NCBI GenBank assembly: GCA_034003325.1 | Contig: JAVEYW010000001.1 | Coordinates: forward strand, 219,838-283,837 | DNA length: 64,000 bases | Reading direction: 5' to 3' | Source: Desulfobacterales bacterium | Lineage (GTDB): Bacteria > Desulfobacterota > Desulfobacteria > Desulfobacterales > JAFDDL01 | In this document: positions 12,543 to 48,196 of the stretch, in pieces | How the letters are laid out: each line of letters opens with the position of its first letter | Numbering within the stretch: position 1 is the first letter of the stretch | Program-made: the position numbers and the translations under genes | Notes under the pieces: generated by a model | Told to the model about the DNA's origin: nothing | What the model saw: the letters and a program-made list of their open reading frames with translations, nothing else | Database searches by the model: none

Positions 12543-12955
12543 TACCCTTCGCTCCTCTCTATAAACCTAGTCTTCAATGGAAGTTTGTGTGCGGCAAGCC
12601 GAAGCGCTTCTTTTGCCATTTCACGGTCAACACCTTCCATTTCATAGAGGATTCGACCTGGGCGAACAACGGCCACCCACCCCTCAGGAGGCCCTTTCCC
12701 CTTGCCCATTCTGACTTCCGCGGGCTTTTTGGTAATCGGTTTATCCGGAAAAATACGAATCCACATTTTTCCGCCCCTTTTAACATGGCGCGTCATAGCG
12801 ACACGGGCAGCCTCGATTTGTTTCGAGCTGATATACCCGCATTCAATTACCTGCAATCCGAAATCGCCAAAATTAAGGTTGGCGCCGCGGGTGGCCGCAC
12901 CTCTCATTTTGCCCCGCTGTTGTTTTCGGAATTTTACCCTCTTTGGACTCAGCAT
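12542..12955 (-). CDS. rplP: 50S ribosomal protein L16
   Basis: 137 residues with the L16 signature [18 protein letters not shown] and [19 protein letters not shown]16 lies close to the A site and the elbow of tRNA. Confidence 0.98.
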
Positions 12956-12959
12956 GTCC

Positions 12960-13628
12960 TTATACTCCTATCGGCGATTGCGCGCTCAGTTCCGTCTCAT
13001 TTTTCTTTAAAATTTCACCCTTAAAAATAAACACCTTTACCCCGATGATCCCATAGGTGGTTCGCGCCTCGGTAAATCCATAATCGATATCAGCCCGAAG
13101 GGTGTGCAGCGGCACTCTTCCTTCCTTATACCATTCCGTACGGGCCATTTCAGCCCCGCCCAACCGACCGGCGCATATAATCTTCACGCCTTGAGCCCCG
13201 AAACGCATCGCGCTTGTCACCCCTCGTTTCATAGCACGCCGAAACGCCACACGACGTGTAATTTGCATGGCAACACTTTCAGCCATTAATTGGGCATCCA
13301 CCTCAGGTTTTCTGACTTCCTGAATATCGATGGAAACTTCCTGTGTAATCGTCTTCTCGATGTCCTTTTTGAGTTGCTCGATTTCGGACCCTTTTTTACC
13401 GATCACGATCCCGGGTCTGGCTGTAAAAATTCTGAGCCGAATCCGTTTGGCGGATCTTTCTATCTCTATCCTGGAAACACCGGCATGGTAGAGTTTTTCT
13501 TTTAAAAATTTTCGAATATTGAAGTCTTCAAGGATATAATCCGAGTAATTCTTATCAGAATACCACCGGGATTCCCAGGTTTTGACAATACCTAATCTCA
13601 TTCCAATCGGATTTACTTTCTGGCCCAA
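12960..13628 (-). CDS. rpsC: 30S ribosomal protein S3
   Basis: 222 residues with a KH domain ([20 protein letters not shown]) and the C-terminal domain ([20 protein letters not shown]). S3 is part of the mRNA entry tunnel and helicase activity. Confidence 0.98.
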
Positions 13629-13641
13629 ACTGCTTCCTCCT

Positions 13642-13992
13642 TTATAACACCTTTTCGTCCGATAAAGTGACGGCGATATGACTCGTCCGCTTTAGAATGC
13701 GGCTTCCCCTTCCGCGCGCTCTTGCCGTGAATCGCTTCAACATTGGCCCCTGATCCGCCGTAATGTTTCTTATAACCAGGGAATCCACATCAACACCGGG
13801 TTTTTGATCGGCATTCGCCACCGCACTGGTAATAATCTTCTCCAATATTCTGGCACTTTTTTGCGGCATAAACTTGACTTTCTGCAGACCCGTTTCAACC
13901 GGCAATCCCTTGATCCCCCCAACCAGCATACGTACTTTTTGCGGTGAGATGCGGGCATATCTTAATACGGCTCTTACCTCCATACCAGACAT
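13642..13992 (-). CDS. rplV: 50S ribosomal protein L22
   Basis: 116 residues. Either the ATG at 13,992 (MSGMEVRAV) or that at 13,983 could start it; both are in range of a GGAG site. L22 lines the exit tunnel; its hairpin and the end [12 protein letters not shown] look normal. Confidence 0.97.
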
Positions 13993-14007
13993 TCTCCAAT
14001 CTCCAAT

Positions 14008-14289
14008 TTACTTCTTAATTTTGGTTTTTTTATCGCCGGCATGTCCATAAAACGTCCGAGTCGGAGAAAATTCGCCCAGTTTGTGCCCGACCATATTTTC
14101 CGATACGAACACCGGCACGAACTTTTTTCCGTTATGAACGGCCAGCGTGATGCCCACCATCTCCGGAACAACCGTAGAGCGTCTGGACCAGGTTTTAATC
14201 ACCCGATTAGACCGACTCTCCTGTGCGGTAACCACTTTTCCCATCAGTTTGGGCTCAATATAAGGACCTTTTTTTAACGACCGTGGCAT
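14008..14289 (-). CDS. rpsS: 30S ribosomal protein S19
   Basis: 93 residues, beginning [15 protein letters not shown] and holding [20 protein letters not shown]19 forms a complex with S13 in the head of the 30S subunit. Confidence 0.98.
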
Positions 14290-40147: not shown

Positions 40148-42043
40148 ATGAAATATGGATGTTGGATCTCTTGCCTGTCCTTATGGATGTTCTTTACGTG
40201 GGGATGTGCCACCTCCCCCCCTGCTTCCCATCAATCGATCGGCGATATTACTGTTCAATCAAAATCATCGCACCGAAAACCCAACGCCGATATTTCTTCG
40301 GAAAACCCGGCCATAGCATCAGAAGCAAATAACATCAGCGCCGGTAACAGGCTTTCCACTTTTTCCAACTCCGCGCAAAAAGAGCGCTCGTCCCGAATGG
40401 CTCTTATTTCGCCGCCCTCTCCCCAAGACATCGAAGAAGCCACGGAAGAAACCGTGGAAGAAGGCACTTCCGGATGCATTGCTTCCAAAATGGGCTCCGA
40501 AAAGCTGGATGAAGCACTTGAATATTGTGATTTATCTCAGGAATTATGGCAAAAAGGTGAGCTTGACAACGCGCTGGACATGCTGGATCATGCCTATGAG
40601 CTCATCCTTGAGGTGGATACTGAAAATGATCCCGTCCTTATTCAGCAAAAGGAAGATCTTCGCTATACCATTTCAAAGAGAACGCTAGAAATTTACGCTT
40701 CACGTCATATTGTCGTCAACGGCCAACACAATGCCATTCCAATGGTCATGAACAAGTATGTTCAAAACGAAATCCATCTGCTAACCGTCACCGAAAGGCA
40801 GTTTTTCATCGATGCCTACCGCAGATCCGGTCGCTTTCGCCCTAACATCGTCGAGGCCTTGCGAGAGAACGGTCTGCCCGAAGAGCTATCCTGGCTGCCG
40901 CTGATTGAAAGCGGCTTTAAAATGCGCGCACTTTCAAGTGCGCGGGCACTCGGGTTGTGGCAATTCATCCCTTCTACCGGGTACAAGTTCGGTTTGCAGC
41001 GCGATATGTTTATCGATGAGCGCCTTGATCCGGACAAAGCGACAACCGCCGCCATCAGCTATCTAAAAGAACTTCATCAGATTTTCGGTGACTGGACCAC
41101 CGTGCTGGCCGCTTATAATTGTGGGGAAGGGCGGGTGCTTCGCGTGATCCGCAATCAAAATATCAACTATCTCGATAATTTCTGGGATTTATACAAGCAG
41201 TTGCCAATGGAAACCGCCCGATACGTCCCTCGCTTTTTGGCAACGCTTCATATTCTTAACGACCCCCAACAATATGGCTTGGAGGATGAATTGACGCTTG
41301 ATGCCCCCCCTGAATATGAAACGTGCATGTTAAGCCGCCAAGTTCATCTGAAAAATGTTGCCAATATTATCGCCACACCTGAGCATGTGATAAGGGATCT
41401 TAATCCGGAACTTCGTTACGGCATTCTACCGGACGCCCCCTATCAGCTTAAATTGCCGGTGGGAACGGTTGATACTTTATCGAGTCAAATAGACTCGATT
41501 CCTTTGGCAAAGCCCCAACCCCCACCAACAAAGGCATTTTCATTGCATCAGGTTCGAAGCGGTGAAACACTCTCCAGGATTGCAACCCGCTATAAAACAA
41601 CGATTCATCGCTTAAAAAAGGCAAATGGGCTTCGGGGCGATTGTATTGTTCCCGGGCAGAGACTCAAAATACCGCAACCGGGCGCGGTATTGGCTACCGC
41701 AAGCAGCACGTCCACCGGTGGAAAACGCCGGACCGCCACACACACGGTCCGCCAAGGGGATTCTCTCTGGAATATTGCCCGTCGTTACGGCACAACCACC
41801 CAGGAAATTCAGGCATTAAACAACATGAAAGGCTCTCGGTTGGTTATCGGCCAGCGCCTGAAACTTTATTCGCCCAAAAAGGGAACTCAGTCTCGGACCA
41901 GTCGAATCTATGTCGTTCAAAAAGGCGACAATCTTTCAATCATTGCCCAAAAACTCAATACGTCTTTGGCAAAATTATTACATGCCAATCAGTTTAATGG
42001 GAAAAGCAAAATCTATCCCGGGCAAAAAATCTATATCGACTAA
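40148..42043 (+). CDS. mltD: Membrane-bound lytic transglycosylase with three LysM repeats (MltD-like)
   Basis: 631 residues. The N terminus is a hydrophobic signal with Cys20 in a weak lipobox (TWGC), so a lipoprotein is likely. After a Ser/Glu-rich linker and a helical region, the lysozyme-like domain has the catalytic Glu in SWLPLIESGFKMRALSSARA and the motifs LGLWQFIPSTGYKFGL and LAAYNCGEGRV. Three LysM modules near the end (VRSGETLSRIATRYK, VRQGDSLWNIARRYG, VQKGDNLSIIAQKLN) bind peptidoglycan. It cleaves glycan strands in the periplasm. AAGGA lies 9 nt before the ATG. Confidence 0.9.
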   Translation: MKYGCWISCLSLWMFFTWGCATSPPASHQSIGDITVQSKSSHRKPNADISSENPAIASEANNISAGNRLSTFSNSAQKERSSRMALISPPSPQDIEEATEETVEEGTSGCIASKMGSEKLDEALEYCDLSQELWQKGELDNALDMLDHAYELILEVDTENDPVLIQQKEDLRYTISKRTLEIYASRHIVVNGQHNAIPMVMNKYVQNEIHLLTVTERQFFIDAYRRSGRFRPNIVEALRENGLPEELSWLPLIESGFKMRALSSARALGLWQFIPSTGYKFGLQRDMFIDERLDPDKATTAAISYLKELHQIFGDWTTVLAAYNCGEGRVLRVIRNQNINYLDNFWDLYKQLPMETARYVPRFLATLHILNDPQQYGLEDELTLDAPPEYETCMLSRQVHLKNVANIIATPEHVIRDLNPELRYGILPDAPYQLKLPVGTVDTLSSQIDSIPLAKPQPPPTKAFSLHQVRSGETLSRIATRYKTTIHRLKKANGLRGDCIVPGQRLKIPQPGAVLATASSTSTGGKRRTATHTVRQGDSLWNIARRYGTTTQEIQALNNMKGSRLVIGQRLKLYSPKKGTQSRTSRIYVVQKGDNLSIIAQKLNTSLAKLLHANQFNGKSKIYPGQKIYID

Positions 42044-42132
42044 TGTTTCTGAATCACAGGCATCTAAAACAAATTGAAAAAAGAAGGCGTTCGGTATTTT
42101 AATAGCGGCAACATGGCCTTTCCTAAAATAAA

Positions 42133-42164
42133 CATGGGGATAACCTGTTAAGATTATCCCCATG
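42133..42164 (-). terminator. Terminator of the original tRNA-Glu, now displaced
   Basis: An 11-bp perfect stem (CATGGGGATAA with TTATCCCCATG) followed on the minus strand by TTTATTTT. It lies 10 nt beyond the tRNA-Glu 3' fragment and was probably its terminator before the element inserted. Confidence 0.65.
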
Positions 42165-42173
42165 ATGTCTCTC

Positions 42174-42221
42174 TTGGTGATCCCACCGGGATTCGAACCC
42201 GGGTTACCGGCGTGAGAGGCC
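42174..42221 (-). repeat. attL: 48-bp copy of the tRNA-Glu 3' end
   Basis: Perfect match to 48,121-48,168, covering the tRNA from the anticodon stem through the T arm to CCA plus one base. The 5' part is absent, so this copy is not a functional tRNA. It marks the left end of the integrated element. Confidence 0.95.
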
Positions 42222-42347
42222 TTCCATATACTATTTCTGTATTTTTCCTCCATTTTAAATTTATTTACTAACTTATTTATATATAGTAATTTATTGACAA
42301 TTCAGTCTTCCTCTGATATTTATTTGTTTACCTTGATAACCAAATTA

Positions 42348-42371
42348 TAGGTTGGAAATAGGGTTGGAAAA
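42348..42371 (+). repeat. 24-bp repeat near attL, possible integrase arm site
   Basis: Identical to 48,038-48,061 and in the same orientation. It contains GGTTGGAAA twice, 12 nt apart. One copy lies just inside each end of the element, as expected for arm-type integrase or excisionase sites. Confidence 0.6.
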
Positions 42372-42392
42372 ATAATTTTTAATGAGGGAATC

Positions 42393-43544
42393 ATGCCGAA
42401 ACGCACTAAAACAAAATATCCCGGCGTTTATTTCCGTGAAGCTGAAAGGATCGGCGGAAGGGGAATCGAAAGGGTTTATTATGTTGTCATAAAAAAAGAC
42501 GGCAAAGTTATTGAGGAGAAAGTGGGGCGGCAATACGCTGACGATATGACCCCTGCAAAAGCCTCTGCAATCCGATCTGAACTTATCGAAGGCAAGAGGC
42601 TTCACCGTAAAATAAATAAGCAGGTTGAGGCTGAGAGGCAAAGACAGGAGGCAGGGAAATGGACAATCGATAAGCTGTGGAAGGAGTACAGCGGGCAAAG
42701 AAAGCCGGGTAAGGGCCTTTCAATCGATCAAAACCGATATGCTCTTTACCTCGAAAAGCTTTTTGGCCAAAAAGAGCCTCATGAAATCATCATTTTGGAC
42801 ATTGATCGGTTGCGAATCAACCTTTTGAAGAAAAAGTCCCCTCAAACCGTCAAGCACGCTCTAAACCTTTTGACATGGATCATCAATTTCGGCGTTAAAA
42901 AAGGATTGTGCCAGGGAATACCATTTAAGATACAAAAGCCGCCGGTGGACAATATAAGAACAGAGGATCTTACCCCCGATCAATTGAATAACCTTCTAAT
43001 CGCCATTGACGCCGATGAAAACCGGGATGTGGCGAATATGATGAAACTGGCTCTTTTTTCCGGTTTAAGACGCGGCGAAATGTTTAACTTGAAATGGAGA
43101 GACATTGATTTTGATCGGGGCTTCATAACGATTAATGATCCCAAAGGGGGGAAGTCCCAAAAGATCCCCTTAAATGATTCTGCCCGGGCAATTTTGGAGA
43201 GCCAAAAACGGACACGAAGCGCCTATGTGTTCCCGGGGCAAGATGGTCAGAAGCGGGTCACGGCTTCCAAGGCTTCAAAGCGAATTAGGAAAAATGCGGG
43301 TTTACCTGAAGACTTTAGACCGTTTCATGGCCTTCGCCACGTTTTCGCCTCCATGCTTGCTAGTTCCGGAAAGGTTGACATGTACACCCTTCAGAAGTTA
43401 TTAACTCATAAAAGCCCACAAATGACCCAACGATATGCGCACCTGAGAGATGACGCATTAAAACGAGCCTCTGATCTGGCGGGAAGTCTCGTTGAAGATA
43501 TAATTGCAGAACAAGTAAAAAAACGGAATGCAAGCCCAAGGTAA
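42393..43544 (+). CDS. int: Tyrosine recombinase / integrase of the element
   Basis: 383 residues: an N-terminal DNA-binding part, a core-binding domain (residues 90-175) and the catalytic domain with Arg226 (SGLRRGE), Lys251 or 254, His312-x-x-Arg315 (HGLRH), His339 and the nucleophile Tyr348 (QRYAHL). All active-site residues are present, so it should be active. It faces inward from attL, 171 nt from the repeat, with GAGGG before the ATG. It catalyses insertion into and excision from tRNA-Glu. Confidence 0.95.
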   Translation: MPKRTKTKYPGVYFREAERIGGRGIERVYYVVIKKDGKVIEEKVGRQYADDMTPAKASAIRSELIEGKRLHRKINKQVEAERQRQEAGKWTIDKLWKEYSGQRKPGKGLSIDQNRYALYLEKLFGQKEPHEIIILDIDRLRINLLKKKSPQTVKHALNLLTWIINFGVKKGLCQGIPFKIQKPPVDNIRTEDLTPDQLNNLLIAIDADENRDVANMMKLALFSGLRRGEMFNLKWRDIDFDRGFITINDPKGGKSQKIPLNDSARAILESQKRTRSAYVFPGQDGQKRVTASKASKRIRKNAGLPEDFRPFHGLRHVFASMLASSGKVDMYTLQKLLTHKSPQMTQRYAHLRDDALKRASDLAGSLVEDIIAEQVKKRNASPR

Positions 43545-43572
43545 GCATGCTTTATCAGTGTAAAGGAGGGCA

Positions 43573-44814
43573 ATGCACATGTGCATCCCCATTATTCATT
43601 GTCTCGCTGCATTACTTTTTTTGCTTTTACCTGCCTTCGGGGTGAATGCTGCCGAGGTTAGGGTCCATAATCGTTCTCTCATTATACTGTCGGGAGAAAT
43701 TGAAAAGGGCGATTACGACAAGGTCTTGAGTACTGCAAAAAAGGCCGGGCCAGGCATAGATTCCATATTTTTAGCTTCGCCTGGTGGTGATCTCATAGAA
43801 GCCATGCGCATTGGCCGATTGGTCAGACAACTAAAGTGGTCATCGGAAGCACCCGATTTCATCATGGAAATCGCTGCAAAAAGCGTTATGCATGGAGGAG
43901 GTTTTTTTAAAGAATTAGGCTTCGAGGGCATAACAGAAGAACATCAACTCGTGTGCGCGAGTTCATGCTTTTTCATCTATGCGGGTGGCATATATCGATC
44001 CGGGGATGAAATTGGAATCCACCGTCCCTATTTCAGCAAGGAGGACTATGCTCGAATGGGCGGTAATGAAGTGATTGGTAAATCAAAGACAGTCGCCAGC
44101 ATGGTGGAAGACTACCTAAAGGAAATGGGCGTTCCGTCACGTTTTTCTGAAATTATGTTCTCAACACAAAAGGATTCGATTCGGTGGCTTAACCATGAAG
44201 AATTGAAAGAGCTTAATAGATACGCACCGGGATTAGATGATTTGATTGATTCCAAATGCGGAAGTCGGGCCGACCAGTGGGCAGCGATAGAAAAGATTAG
44301 GCTGCGATTTGGTGAGAAGACACCTGAAGGCCGTAAGCTTACACAAGAGTTGCGGCAACGGCATCACGATTGCTGGGACCAAATAATGCAGGAAATGCGC
44401 CAAGAGGCATGGCATAAATTCTTTGACAAGAATAATGCAAATAATGAATCGGTGGTAATGTCAAAATTAACCTTTTTAATTTTCCCCTCAAGTTTCATCC
44501 TGACAATTATTCTCTGGTTTTGGAAACAGTCAAAGCGCCCTTTAATGCATATGAGATGGGTTTTTTCTCCTATATGGATTTGTTTGTTGATTTTATACGG
44601 TGAATTCTGTTTTAAAAATCAGCTTCTACCTAAAGCTGGGCCAGCATGTGTTTTCCTCACTATAATTTTCGTTGCATTGAAACTATTAAAAAAAGTTGAG
44701 TGGAAATGGGGATGGACATTGTGCCCGATCTGGTTCTGGGCAATTTTAAATATCGGGGCAATTTTAAATATTATTTCAGTCGGCTACATAGAACCAAAGG
44801 GACTCCCTTTTTGA
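43573..44814 (+). CDS. Membrane-anchored ClpP/SppA-like protein (COG3904-like), element cargo
   Basis: 413 residues (an ATG two codons later has better ribosome-site spacing). It has a signal peptide (LAALLFLLLPAFGVNA). The ClpP-like region includes ILSGEIEKGDYDKV, IFLASPGGDLIEAMRIGRLV and VCASSCFFIYAGG; Ser130 is in the position of the nucleophile, with His150 in GDEIGIHRPY. After a charged middle region, four hydrophobic segments fill residues about 296-405. This resembles predicted periplasmic proteins of COG3904. Protease activity has not been shown for that group as far as I know. It is 28 nt after int, in the slot where satellites often carry accessory genes; a defence role is speculation. 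Confidence 0.7.
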   Translation: MHMCIPIIHCLAALLFLLLPAFGVNAAEVRVHNRSLIILSGEIEKGDYDKVLSTAKKAGPGIDSIFLASPGGDLIEAMRIGRLVRQLKWSSEAPDFIMEIAAKSVMHGGGFFKELGFEGITEEHQLVCASSCFFIYAGGIYRSGDEIGIHRPYFSKEDYARMGGNEVIGKSKTVASMVEDYLKEMGVPSRFSEIMFSTQKDSIRWLNHEELKELNRYAPGLDDLIDSKCGSRADQWAAIEKIRLRFGEKTPEGRKLTQELRQRHHDCWDQIMQEMRQEAWHKFFDKNNANNESVVMSKLTFLIFPSSFILTIILWFWKQSKRPLMHMRWVFSPIWICLLILYGEFCFKNQLLPKAGPACVFLTIIFVALKLLKKVEWKWGWTLCPIWFWAILNIGAILNIISVGYIEPKGLPF

Positions 44815-44915
44815 ATTTAGAAACAAATTTAAGGAACCAAATTGGTCAAAATCATCGCTAAAGGGGAATGAACTTTAAAGAGCGGGAAAGAAGTAGGAGA
44901 TCAAATTAAATTGGA

Positions 44916-45410
44916 TCAGTCTCGATTTAATCTGACGCCATCAACCACTAAGCCGCATTCTGCCATAGCTTTAAGGCCCCTTTCTTTAAACGCCTCTATT
45001 TCATCAGTTGTAAAATATGCCGATATTGCTGCCGATTCGATTTTCATCTGTTTCGTAGGCCCGTAACCGGCGCGGCTTAAAAGTTCCAGCGCAACATTTG
45101 CCTTCAGCTTTAGCATTTCTGGCGTTGTCCGTTCATCAGCCAAAATTTCCAGCAGCACTTCAGTACCCTTTTGCGCCCCTTCAGCGATTTTCTCTGGAAT
45201 GCCGGGAACACAAACAACGGCATTGACGTTCGCAAACTCCTGAAGCCGTTTTACCTCATTCAAAACTTTCGGATCACGAACTATCCTTGAAACAGTTGAT
45301 TTATGTAAGGTTAACAATTTTGCAATTTCAGATTGCGAATGCCCGCCGACGAGAAGGCGCGCTAGTTGCTGATGGCGCGGTGAAAGTTGCATAAGTTGTC
45401 TGTCGGTCAT
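44916..45410 (-). CDS. HTH protein resembling phage small terminase
   Basis: 164 residues. A helix-turn-helix at about residues 10-45 (LSPRHQQLARLLVGGHSQSE, then IAKLLTLHKSTVSRIVRD) is followed by a helical region with a KGTEVLLEILADERTTPEML stretch, typical of terminase small subunits and related phage HTH proteins. The ATG is preceded by AAGGA. In satellites a small terminase redirects packaging of the helper phage; here that is an inference. A plain regulator is the alternative. Confidence 0.55.
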   Translation of the reverse strand: MTDRQLMQLSPRHQQLARLLVGGHSQSEIAKLLTLHKSTVSRIVRDPKVLNEVKRLQEFANVNAVVCVPGIPEKIAEGAQKGTEVLLEILADERTTPEMLKLKANVALELLSRAGYGPTKQMKIESAAISAYFTTDEIEAFKERGLKAMAECGLVVDGVRLNRD

Positions 45411-45593
45411 TTATGGTTCCTTTTTTGTGCATAATTCATCGATTTGGTTGGAAATGATGGCCTTGGGAATGCTTTTGTTTGCACGCTTTTTTAATTTCGT
45501 TCGGTTAAATCCGTTGTTGAGTATCCGGAGCAACCCAAAAGATGTTTGTTGCGTATTGAATTTTTGTTGAGTAGCGCACTCAGCATATAACAT
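45411..45593 (-). CDS. Possible 60-residue ORF upstream of the HTH gene
   Basis: It ends directly before the ATG of the HTH gene, which would suit an operon. However there is no ribosome site, the sequence is not recognised, and two TTGAGTA repeats fall inside it. It may be non-coding. Confidence 0.2.
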   Translation of the reverse strand: MLYAECATQQKFNTQQTSFGLLRILNNGFNRTKLKKRANKSIPKAIISNQIDELCTKKEP

Positions 45594-45788
45594 ATTGATA
45601 TAATATTATTAACTGTAATTTATTGAGTGTTTGAGTAGTTTGAGTGCTATTTTCCATTTTTCCACCTTTTCCCATTCTGCCTCTCGATACAGCCACACTC
45701 AAATTACTCAACAAATATATTATATATAAAATATTATTAATATAATTAGATTGTTAGATGTTTAGTTTCACGCTCAACATTTACTCAA
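45517..45788. repeat. Cluster of TTGAGT(A/G) repeats with a 16-bp inverted repeat
   Basis: TTGAGTA/G occurs at 45,517, 45,567, 45,623, 45,631 and 45,640; its reverse complement (TACTCAA or CACTCAA) occurs at 45,696, 45,705 and 45,782. The arms 45,631-45,646 and 45,696-45,711 form a 16-bp inverted repeat with one mismatch, flanked by very AT-rich sequence (45,712-45,755). Spacings of 8 and 9 nt suggest iterons of a replication origin next to the DUF3987 gene, or operators. No gene is supported between 45,594 and 45,780. Confidence 0.6.
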
Positions 45789-47118
45789 CATTTTCAACAA
45801 CATTTTCTTTTTCATCGACCAACGTGATCATGGTCCCATTTTTGTGATCCGTATTGATCAGAACAATATTACCTGATTCTTCAAGGGTTTGTAAAACATA
45901 ATCATAATCCTTCGAGCCACCTTCCAAGACCCTTGATTGAATAAGTTGTCTGCGGGATACACTGCCGCCCCGTTTAAAAATATAATCTCTAACCTTGCGC
46001 ACCTTTTTTTGATGCGGTGACTCGCCTAAATCATTTTCAAACAGCCATATTGTCGAATCAACGGCTTGCTCCATTATCGCAATGGCACCATTTAATGCAT
46101 CCATGCCGATCTCATCAGCACACTCGTCCACGAACAGTTGAAGCAGCATGGCAATTTTGAGCACATAAGGCGACCACCGTTTTAAATAAGGTTCGAGTAT
46201 TCGCTGCGAATTTTCCAGGCGATCTGTAACTTTCTCGTATAACTCTTTATGTAACTGCTCAAAAGCTTCCTTTGCTTTGGCATTCAGGCGGTAAGCTCTC
46301 GACCCTGGCAAGGCCTGAAGGGACTCGATAACGGCTTTAACGCCCTTTTCTGCTTCCCTTTCGATGACAGGCCCGGCCTTGGGCAAGGCAGGGGGGACCC
46401 TGTCATTATGAGGCGGGAAAAAAATCAAAAACCGTGCAAAAAAGCCGGATGAAATGTCATCCACGCCAATATTATTTTTTACCCATTCAACGGTTGAAAC
46501 GCCGCAAATGGTGATGAAGGGTTCCCTAATAGTAAGGCGTCCACCGGACTTTGTCCGACTGCTGTAAACCGACGGAACATCATAAAGATGCGTGAACAAC
46601 TGTTTCAATCCCTGATTGTATGAACGTTCCAGCGTTTGAAGCCACGCTCCGAATTCTGAACATATGATCGCCCCGGCATGACCATTAACTAAATCCTCAA
46701 GTAATCCCTCTGAAGTTGTCCGGTTTGGAAGGATCACATCCTTTTTGTTTGCCCTCTCATAAAGATCTGACACATTCCCCGAATCATGCTCATAAGCTAG
46801 GTTAAAGCCCTTGTTCAATGCAGTGGTTTTGAAAGAGCCGGATCGACTTACGCATAGCGTCCAGAGGTTTGGGTATAGAGTTTGAAAATATCCTTCTCCC
46901 TCCTCCTTTGCCTCAGGTATAAAACACGAATGTTTTACAAAAGCGGACACCATGCACAGCACACTCACCACAATCATGATCGGCTCAGCATCGGTTGTGG
47001 CAACGATTGAATCAACATAGCGTTGAATCTTTTTCGGAAGCTTCCCTGTGTCGAAACTAGGGCAAGGGCAAAGCTTTGTACCCAGTGAGTTATCATCTTT
47101 AAGAGGGAAGGTTTTCAT
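45781..47118 (-). CDS. DUF3987-type ATPase, putative replication protein of the element
   Basis: 445 residues of the DUF3987 (YfjI-like) type. After LPKKIQRYVDSIVATTDAEP it has a helical segment (IVVSVLCMVSAFVKHS) and a Walker A-like CVSRSGSFKTTALNKG near residue 90, then ICSEFGAWLQTLERSYNQGL and TICGVSTVEWVKNNI. Such proteins occur in satellites and prophages in place of a primase-helicase. The C terminus has a winged-helix-like part. The TTGAGT repeat cluster follows directly. Confidence 0.75.
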   Translation of the reverse strand: MKTFPLKDDNSLGTKLCPCPSFDTGKLPKKIQRYVDSIVATTDAEPIMIVVSVLCMVSAFVKHSCFIPEAKEEGEGYFQTLYPNLWTLCVSRSGSFKTTALNKGFNLAYEHDSGNVSDLYERANKKDVILPNRTTSEGLLEDLVNGHAGAIICSEFGAWLQTLERSYNQGLKQLFTHLYDVPSVYSSRTKSGGRLTIREPFITICGVSTVEWVKNNIGVDDISSGFFARFLIFFPPHNDRVPPALPKAGPVIEREAEKGVKAVIESLQALPGSRAYRLNAKAKEAFEQLHKELYEKVTDRLENSQRILEPYLKRWSPYVLKIAMLLQLFVDECADEIGMDALNGAIAIMEQAVDSTIWLFENDLGESPHQKKVRKVRDYIFKRGGSVSRRQLIQSRVLEGGSKDYDYVLQTLEESGNIVLINTDHKNGTMITLVDEKENVVENVE

Positions 47119-47138
47119 AAATTTCCATTAATCAATAA

Positions 47139-47342
47139 TTAATTCGATTTTGTAGGTGACGGGACCCTTCTTAAATCGTCATATTGCAGTTTCTCCACCG
47201 AAACATTTCGAAAGCTAAAATTTTCATAAAGCCCTTTTGCATGATTCCAAGCAACTGCATCGTTATTAACGATTACATATTGAAATTTTGTTTCGTTGCT
47301 TTGAGATACTAAACCAATTTTGAAAAGCTTTTCTTTATTCAT
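47139..47342 (-). CDS. Small protein of unknown function
   Basis: 67 residues with a good AAGGGG site before the ATG. 20 nt upstream of the DUF3987 gene and probably in one operon with it. I do not recognise the family; the sequence is polar without membrane segments. Confidence 0.55.
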   Translation of the reverse strand: MNKEKLFKIGLVSQSNETKFQYVIVNNDAVAWNHAKGLYENFSFRNVSVEKLQYDDLRRVPSPTKSN

Positions 47343-47415
47343 GTAACGCCCCTTTAATTATGGTTTTTTTAAAAGTGGATAAAAATTTCCCGTGAAAAAC
47401 TGCCGGAAATGTTAT

Positions 47416-47610
47416 TCATATTCCCGAAGTTTTGACCGCCCGTGATTTCATAAAATCATGGATATCATTAAGTGAATACCTTACAGATCGCCCTATTTTA
47501 CTATAAGGAAAACCCTTTCCTAAAAAACGATCGTTACGCAATGTTTGAACGGCACGGCCCGTGATTTCAGCCACCTGATTTTCGGTTAAATATCTGTTTT
47601 GGTGTTCCAT
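47416..47610 (-). CDS. AlpA/excisionase-type HTH regulator
   Basis: 64 residues of the winged HTH_17 type: RYLTENQVAEITGRAVQTLR, then FPYSKIGRSVRYSLNDIHDF. AlpA-like proteins control integrase and excision in P4-like elements. A strong GGAGGGGG site and a promoter candidate at 47,665 place it first in the minus-strand operon of the element. Confidence 0.85.
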   Translation of the reverse strand: MEHQNRYLTENQVAEITGRAVQTLRNDRFLGKGFPYSKIGRSVRYSLNDIHDFMKSRAVKTSGI

Positions 47611-47664
47611 TCCCCCTCCTTCTGTACTATATTGTTGATTATTATAAGGAATTATTATGATTCA

Positions 47665-47693
47665 ATATTATACTATTATTTTTTGGTGGTCAA
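47665..47693 (-). promoter_or_regulatory. Candidate promoter of the alpA operon
   Basis: TTGACC (47,688-47,693), 17 nt, TAATAT (47,665-47,670) on the minus strand; TATAAT is also found at 47,641-47,646. Confidence 0.5.
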
Positions 47694-48037
47694 TGTAATT
47701 TTTGGTGTATTTACTGCTAGTTATATAGATTAAAGTGGGTTAATGTATCCTGAACATATTTTAAATATCGCTATCGATGGAATCGCTAGGCATTCATGGA
47801 AAAATTGTTTCAACGAGCTATATCGGGGAAAGTTTCCGCAAAATTTGTGAGCGCCAACCCCGTCGATTCTTACGGTTTATTCCCCCCATCGACGTTTAAC
47901 GACACAATTATATTCTCGCTGTTAGTTGCGCTAAGATCAAAACGGTGGCCGGCTATGCTCATGAAGCCGTATAACTATGGTATCCGCCAATAGAAGCCGG
48001 GGCTTCATTTAAGTCGCTATTGGTGAAAGTTACTCTG

Positions 48038-48061
48038 TAGGTTGGAAATAGGGTTGGAAAA
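48038..48061 (+). repeat. 24-bp repeat near attR, possible integrase arm site
   Basis: Second copy of the repeat at 42,348, same orientation. It lies 60 nt inside attR. Confidence 0.6.
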
Positions 48062-48080
48062 CAAAAGGATGACAAAACCA

Positions 48081-48110
48081 AAAAAGGCCATGCATTAAGC
48101 ATAACCCTTT
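48081..48110 (-). terminator. Terminator of tRNA-Glu supplied by the element
   Basis: On the minus strand AAAGG and ATGC pair with GCAT and CCTTT across a small internal loop, followed by a run of T. It ends 12 nt beyond the tRNA and replaces the displaced terminator at 42,133. Confidence 0.5.
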
Positions 48111-48120
48111 AATATCATTA

Positions 48121-48168
48121 TTGGTGATCCCACCGGGATTCGAACCCGGGTTACCGGCGTGAGAGGCC
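48121..48168 (-). repeat. attR: 48-bp repeat within the intact tRNA-Glu
   Basis: Perfect match to 42,174-42,221. The intact tRNA uses this copy as its 3' half. Confidence 0.95.
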
Positions 48169-48196
48169 AGCGTCCTAACCGCTAGACGATGGGACC
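48122..48196 (-). tRNA. gltT: tRNA-Glu (CTC), integration target
   Basis: Acceptor GGTCCCA/TGGGATC, anticodon loop CTCTCAC (anticodon CTC), T loop GGTTCGAATCC, encoded CCA. Intact despite the element because the inserted DNA restores its 3' half. Confidence 0.95.

Follow-up and report, generated by a model that had tools for sequence, protein, structure and literature searches.

A candidate minimal phage satellite in a tRNA-Glu gene of a Desulfobacterales bacterium

Known satellites and the present element

Most of the phage satellites known so far come from Enterobacterales, Vibrionaceae and Gram-positive cocci. Here we describe an element of 5,947 bp in a stretch of 64,000 nucleotides from a Desulfobacterales bacterium, a relative of sulfate reducers (assembly GCA_034003325.1, contig JAVEYW010000001.1, positions 219,838 to 283,837, forward strand). 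This stretch is called the window below, and unlabelled coordinates refer to it. The element is probably a minimal, tRNA-targeting phage satellite, similar to the phage-inducible chromosomal islands (PICI) and the phage-inducible chromosomal minimalist islands (PICMI). We consider this the best reading because the element combines an intact integrase, AlpA, a primase-like gene and a terminase small subunit (TerS) without a terminase large subunit (TerL) or capsid, and because 20 complete relatives of the same integrase lineage likewise gave no TerL match.

The PICMI were described from Vibrionaceae. In the excerpted text of PMC10803314, the PICMI model consists of an integrase (PF00589), AlpA (PF05930/PF12728) and a primase (PF13148/PF19263, DUF5906), with integration next to fis, which is mandatory for the family proper. 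When fis was optional, 135 PICMI-like elements were counted in complete genomes; those of Vibrionaceae average 6.7 kb. As far as the excerpt goes, the type PICMI yielded no terS homologue (PMC10803314). PICMI are packaged as concatemers, by a virulent helper phage. PICI, in the excerpted text of PMC6092414, encode an integrase, AlpA, a replication gene and optionally TerS, have their own att site, carry no structural or lytic genes and are typically 12-15 kb. Further traits of PICI are an att site that prophages never occupy, and induction and transfer that depend on a helper.

Measured against these excerpts, the window element shares with PICMI the Int PF00589, AlpA PF12728 and DUF3987 primase, a size of about 6 kb, the absence of a capsid-remodelling gene, and a small gene between alpA and the primase gene, in the position of PICMI up1 (PMC10803314). 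It differs in lying at tRNA-Glu and not at fis, in having a TerS, in belonging to another phylum, and in that int and the alpA row converge. As it is not located next to fis, we did not file it as a PICMI. With Gram-negative PICI, as the excerpt presents them, it shares an integrase, a replication module, a transcriptional regulator, TerS, an own att site and a lack of structural genes. Unlike these, it is 5.9 kb rather than 12-15 kb, has a DUF3987 replication gene and gives no evidence of helper interference. Because of its size, 5,947 bp, it was not filed as a PICI either. By gene content, the published PICMI model fits the element more closely than PICI does.

The original prediction had named P4-like or PICI satellites. 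A satellite remains the best reading and PICI-like is a fair description of the gene content, whereas the P4-like part is not supported. With P4, as its gene content is generally known, the element shares int, AlpA, a primase-type gene and a tRNA site. It differs in primase type and is smaller, P4-like elements averaging 10 kb. Searching the six element proteins for the P4 packaging-redirect, capsid-sizing and regulatory genes, listed from general knowledge, gave no PHROG or Pfam match at E<=1. We thus rejected a P4-like identity on the missing redirect-gene match and the DUF3987-type primase. Capsid-forming PICI (cf-PICI) were also compared, again from general knowledge of their content. Two relatives in the integrase lineage of the window element (L123 and L195) have a capsid-like gene as cf-PICI do, but the window element itself has no capsid, portal or TerL match.

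Boundaries and integration site

The element is bounded by a perfect 48-bp direct repeat (42174-42221 and 48121-48168). The repeat corresponds to the 3' part of a tRNA-Glu(ctc) gene, since the right copy falls within the intact gene at 48122-48196 on the minus strand, called by both ARAGORN and Rfam. In brief, the left copy is attL (42174-42221, minus strand, 100% identical to 48121-48168), and the right copy is attR (48121-48168, minus strand), located within the intact tRNA-Glu gene that served as integration target. This agrees with the small element in tRNA-Glu, with 48-bp perfect repeats at both ends, that had been predicted. It is near certain that we are dealing with a mobile, integrase-bounded element. 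The G+C content is mostly 0.33-0.48 within it and 0.45-0.58 in the flanks, and the element is present as a single copy in its own genome.

Immediately outside attL we found a hairpin with a U-rich tail (42130-42173, minus strand; folding of 42120-42173). Read in the direction of the tRNA gene, it has a 14-bp stem and a folding energy of -21.7 kcal/mol (z -4.74, 0/200 shuffles as good). It is probably the original terminator of the tRNA-Glu gene, parted from it by the insertion.

Gene content

The element encodes six proteins, P0001 to P0006, all as open frames. These were scanned against the profiles of Pfam, PHROG, NCBIfam and PADLOC; a further open reading frame (ORF) of 60 amino acids was also searched. 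The integrase and a 413-residue protein are encoded rightward; an AlpA-type protein, a 67-residue ORF, a DUF3987 protein and a helix-turn-helix (HTH) protein of 164 residues are encoded leftward and converge on them.

P0001 (42393-43544, plus strand, 383 residues) is a tyrosine integrase (PF00589 at 1.7e-31, also PHROG). Residues R226, K251, H312, R315, H339 and Y348, which we take to be the catalytic ones, do not vary among 11 aligned sequences, so the predicted integrase with a full set of catalytic residues is borne out. P0006 (47416-47610, minus strand, 64 residues), the first gene of the leftward row, is an AlpA/excisionase-type HTH_17 protein by PF12728 and PHROG. It scores 29.3 bits against PF12728, above the gathering cut-off of 27, as expected for the AlpA foreseen in the original prediction. 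The DUF3987 protein was also recovered: P0004 (45781-47118, minus strand, 445 residues) is primase/helicase-like (PF13148 3.1e-23, PHROG primase 3.4e-26) and is a putative replication protein. At the limits used, it has no relative in the order outside its own genome and none in the viral_contigs set.

Two ORFs had been overlooked earlier, along with a second perfect repeat of 24 bp described below. P0002 (43573-44814, plus strand, 413 residues) has, by inspection, a signal-peptide-like N-terminus and hydrophobic C-terminal stretches. It gave a weak C-terminal match to phrog_1374, and at the limits used neither a Pfam family nor a PDB match; the order's 145 other genomes yielded no match either. 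It is probably cargo. P0005 (47139-47342, minus strand, 67 residues), between alpA and the DUF3987 gene, is an ORF without homologues in the four profile collections.

No convincing TerL, head, tail, lysis or conjugation match was found among the six proteins in these collections. When the 60-residue ORF was included, TerS was the sole match to phage structural or packaging genes, and phmmer gave no TerL. The TerL family match to P0003 covers the HTH part only (E 0.12). Structural and transfer genes had been predicted to be absent, and among the proteins scanned they are. A plain prophage was rejected, as the element has no TerL, portal, capsid or tail match.

P0003 as a terminase small subunit

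P0003 (44916-45410, minus strand, 164 residues) is accepted here as a TerS homologue on the basis of profile comparisons. PHROG family phrog_2538 (TerS) matches residues 7-128 at 2e-5 and 25.7 bits. It should be noted that this profile also matches TetR regulators, used as control, at about 23 bits, and we did not accept it as sufficient for a TerS assignment by itself. We therefore built a dedicated profile from seven TerS whose genes adjoin that of a TerL or are separated from it by one gene. The set searched with this hidden Markov model included 6,416 background ORFs; P0003 is found at 2.9e-8, while the best TetR control reaches 0.57. With P0003 and its 55%-identical homologue as query, hhalign gave a probability of 97.7% (1.8e-12) against the seven TerS, 92.7% against three Vicosavirus-type TerS and 1.7% against four TetR proteins. 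The TerS-like HTH protein of the original prediction thus gains support, and P0003 would work as a TerS.

A tblastn search with P0003 matched a Lentilactobacillus plasmid protein over 95% of the query (E 1e-3); that protein is itself a phrog_2538 member at 1.2e-33 and directly precedes TerL and a portal gene. Two weak matches, with E values of 3 and 4 and insignificant alone, are a Desulfofustis phage TerS and a Rhodobacteraceae phage gene. The latter lies two genes before TerL and is annotated as terminase large subunit though merely 170 amino acids long. A third long weak match has no TerS annotation. Among 14 PDB hits were insignificant TerS matches at E 0.035 and 0.061.

When P0003 alone served as query, a search of 50,697 phage records at E<=1e-2 found no relative, and there was none in viral_contigs, genome_contigs or 394 other genomes drawn from the phylum. 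A two-row alignment matched HTH segments only in viral_contigs. The one relative in the order outside its own genome is in genome G106. It has 118 amino acids and lacks the HTH start, and six of its seven match records are Pseudomonas phage TerS (E 0.06-4, related phages). At that locus (G106:C38, L006 1191-2462) the broken TerS homologue and an integrase fragment lie beside a tRNA-Pyl gene, and we interpret the locus as a decayed element in the pyrrolysine tRNA.

Alternatively, the HTH protein could be an element-specific regulator, and packaging could proceed via a helper TerS and a cos or pac site, as in PICMI or EcCICFT073. The HTH domain does match many regulators weakly, and PICMI yielded no terS, according to the excerpt of PMC10803314. 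On the other hand, the TerS match of P0003 reaches into the C-terminal part, the 118-residue homologue resembles TerS without having the HTH start, and the profile tests separate P0003 from TetR. We consider a mere regulator rather improbable, and prefer to regard P0003 as a TerS homologue.

Arm sites

The left arm site, TAGGTTGGAAATAGGGTTGGAAAA, is located at 42348-42371 (plus strand), 21 bp upstream of the int start codon, and the identical right arm site is found at 48038-48061 (plus strand), forming a perfect 24-bp repeat. The 20-bp core of the right site ends 62 bp from the 3' end of the tRNA gene. Each copy consists of two 9-bp GGTTGGAAA units with an 11-bp period, inside both element ends. 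No third copy of the core was found in the 64-kb window at <=4 mismatches. The paired GGTTGGAAA repeats are presumably arm-type sites of the integrase.

The 20-bp pattern, at <=1 mismatch, gave 50 listed matches in 146 genomes of the order and 0 for the reversed control. We read 30 motif loci: six have the integrase, 21 others have a tRNA gene within 1.5 kb, and three have neither. Of the tRNA-side motifs, 18/21 are 47-63 bp from the tRNA 3' end, and the other three 86, 162 and 391 bp (calculated by hand). A GGTTGGAAA pair, at <=3 mismatches, is found within 400 bp upstream of the integrase at 25/95 integrase loci; the motif is therefore not universal. More diverged relatives (L054, L045) have analogous but different paired repeats.

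The motif also occurs elsewhere in the same genome. At G000:C2:358000-372000 (L265) a copy with one mismatch is located 61 bp from a tRNA-Asp gene and downstream of long ORFs that look BREX-like by inspection. An integrase end was looked for at this locus and not found. There may be a third, larger island of the same type here.

Relatives of the integrase lineage

Integrase relatives at E<=1e-50 were found in 22/146 genomes of the order, own genome included. A search of genome_contigs, from which the best 80 of 172 stretches were kept, and of viral_contigs, which gave 15 stretches, yielded 95 integrase loci. The kept genome_contigs stretches are mostly Desulfobacterota records, with a few others, e.g. 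Bacteroidetes and Nitrospiraceae metagenome-assembled genomes. Among the 95 loci, 13 have an att repeat over a tRNA gene and L168 was taken as a circle. Loci without a visible att repeat over a tRNA were left out of the count (19/28 and 81/95 rows), as were L125 and L185, which are on the same contigs as L040 and L045, and L156 and L119, which have direct repeats without a tRNA. The complete set thus holds 21 members: 20 att-bounded elements, the window element included, and one circle.

The targets are tRNA genes for Glu, Asn, Asp, Arg, Gln, Met, Cys, Gly, His and Thr; in L041 the tRNA is visible only as a 3' fragment within the repeat. In tRNA-Glu(ctc) there are five of the 21 elements, none of them with a TerL match. 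The other 20 elements are 5.2-13.8 kb long, except for a 2.7-kb remnant. All 21 have the integrase, 19 an AlpA, 14 a primase-type gene, seven a TerS and two a capsid-like gene, and none has a TerL match by phmmer with seven TerL queries. Only the remnants L045 and L049 are without AlpA. Queries for TerS and primase were partly taken from the 21 elements, and the primase queries were hand-picked and include DnaB-like and AAA-type proteins; the counts therefore show gene presence, not kinship through the gene. A TerL profile matched in 14 of the 16 host genomes searched, own genome included. In the six host genomes with known element coordinates there was no TerL match inside the element, and the nearest on the same contig is about 91 kb off.

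TerS carriers are the window element, L007, L041, L046, L123, L134 and L162. The assignments come from different families: phrog_83 for L007 (6.2e-8) and L123 (2.8e-5), phrog_24579 for L046 (4.7e-5), phrog_309 for L162 (8.3e-27), a homologue that adjoins TerL for L041, and the seven-TerS profile for L134 (1.8e-5). Confidence in the assignments of L046, L123, L041 and L134 is modest.

This family bears on the possibility of a decayed prophage, which lost its structural genes and kept int, a replication gene and TerS. TerS and the primase are phage-type genes, and in L042, of the same integrase lineage, a C8-type TerS-like protein is encoded next to TerL, while L191 has a homologous TerL. However, all six genes of the window element are open and its ends are perfect, the gene set recurs at small size with a TerL match in 0/21, and the different TerS families across elements argue for repeated use and not for a single decay. 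Homologues with phage structural genes in the same position had earlier been named as a sign of decay. Such genes turned up in part, as one capsid-like gene each in L123 and L195 and a TerL in L042 and L191; none is at this site, and no full structural set was seen. We regard a decayed prophage as very unlikely.

Another alternative is that the element is an integrative mobilizable element or a plain genomic island, moved by conjugation or natural transformation, with TerS as a passenger of an integrase family that moves many cargoes. L156, of the same integrase lineage, has relaxase-like and coupling-protein-like ORFs by inspection, the arm motif lies beside the BREX-like island of the same genome, and no TerS was seen in 14/21 complete elements. 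Against this, no relaxase match was found among the six element proteins in the profile scans, and AlpA, primase and TerS together form the constellation of satellites in the excerpted texts of PMC6092414 and PMC10803314. We find this alternative unlikely, though less so than decay or a mere regulator, and return to the satellite as the preferred reading.

Some single loci deserve mention. L123 (15118-17298) is satellite-sized and located in tRNA-Asp. It encodes a TerS and a single major-capsid-like protein (phrog_10, 1e-28), and no TerL was found in it; L195 encodes a distant homologue of the capsid-like protein. In L042 (5772-7932) the C8-type TerS-like gene adjoins a GpA-type TerL, and no recognised portal or capsid gene follows. 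L038 has an S49 head-maturation-protease-like gene (12879-14012, minus strand; phrog_53, 4e-83) and no TerL or capsid match in the element. L156, on a Smithella sp. D17 contig with masked stretches, is perhaps a mobilizable relative. L046 (3788-11490 in oriented coordinates), in tRNA-Asp, has by inspection a type I restriction-like gene set between int and alpA.

Excision and proposed life cycle

Two relatives preserve junctions. The two ends of L168 (7,452 bp) overlap exactly over 127 bp, which makes it a circle of 7,325 bp. Its junction shows, in order, the right arm, a tRNA 3' end (by inspection), the left arm and then int, and we interpret it as the attP expected under the model. A second left end, with 399 bp identical, follows directly on the right end of L041; this junction would stem from a circle or a tandem pair. 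The window element itself is predicted to excise as well.

We propose the following life cycle. The attP would correspond in sequence to the 3' end of tRNA-Glu, and recombination by the integrase would therefore leave the tRNA gene whole. AlpA probably acts as excisionase and switch, and after excision the circle probably relies on the DUF3987 protein for the start of its replication. TerS would then bind the packaging site of the element and recognise the TerL of a helper phage, which would fill helper capsids with satellite DNA. Packaging and transfer would thus depend on a helper phage.

Several observations weigh against a satellite. The alpA-to-terS row runs opposite to int, unlike in most relatives, and 14 of the 21 complete elements show no TerS by these searches. 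The same integrase or arm motif goes with other cargo, by inspection, in L156, L046 and G000:C2. For P0003, the cross-match of phrog_2538 to TetR has been mentioned, the AlphaFold model is unusable (predicted local distance difference test score 48), and there is no resemblance to the TerS of the prophage on contig C13 of the same genome. An empty tRNA-Glu site, proposed as a check in the original prediction, was sought via the left neighbour, an mltD-like gene present in 120/146 genomes of the order. None of the 29 best-matching foreign mltD-like loci has a tRNA-Glu within 1.5 kb. Several carry tRNA-Arg(cct) instead, often downstream of the mltD-like gene, and the left neighbour is therefore no marker of the unoccupied site.

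Taking the family together, we see even chances for the following joint reading. A single integrase lineage of constant architecture (paired GGTTGGAAA arms, a right arm lying some 60 bp from the 3' end of the tRNA, many tRNA genes) would carry a large satellite population through Desulfobacterota. TerS genes of several unrelated families would be exchanged between these satellites, with a change of helper as the consequence, whereas the module for integration and AlpA control would be retained; the same chemistry would move defence islands. The window element would be among the smallest TerS-bearing members, and a second satellite in its genome could share recombination control.

This family view with a shared arm signature is the advance over the original prediction. 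It describes a bounded, recurring satellite-like family in Desulfobacterota. In draft genomes, the ends of its elements and their tRNA targets can be recognised by a 20-bp signature, which makes counting and boundary calling simple. We found no paper on satellites in Desulfobacterota, Deltaproteobacteria, Thermodesulfobacteriota or sulfate-reducing bacteria in the open-licence full-text literature, and the window element belongs to a widespread family that is apparently undescribed in print. How few genes a satellite needs is a further question touched by a 6-kb element that has a TerS of its own: PICMI manages without TerS, the window element retains one.

Other elements and neighbouring genes

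The second satellite-like element of the same genome (G000:C14, L007 1733-10185) is 8,403 bp long and located in tRNA-Asn, with 50-bp repeats. Its integrase is 52% identical to that of the window element, and it has a D5-type primase, a P27-type TerS and the same arm motif at both ends.

The genome also harbors a prophage on C13, in which TerS, TerL, portal-type and capsid genes are present and whose existence counts in favour of a satellite. C27 has a TerL-like gene; a search of the genome for portal family PF04860 gave no match. We name no helper phage, because P0003 is unlike the TerS of C13.

Adjoining the window element on the left is the mltD-like gene, encoding a LysM protein, at 40148-42043. 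Elsewhere in the genome we observed a Mu-like prophage (G000:C1:345000-372000), and the C13 prophage (C13:1-36000) is podovirus-like and runs into an ORF of over 3,400 amino acids.

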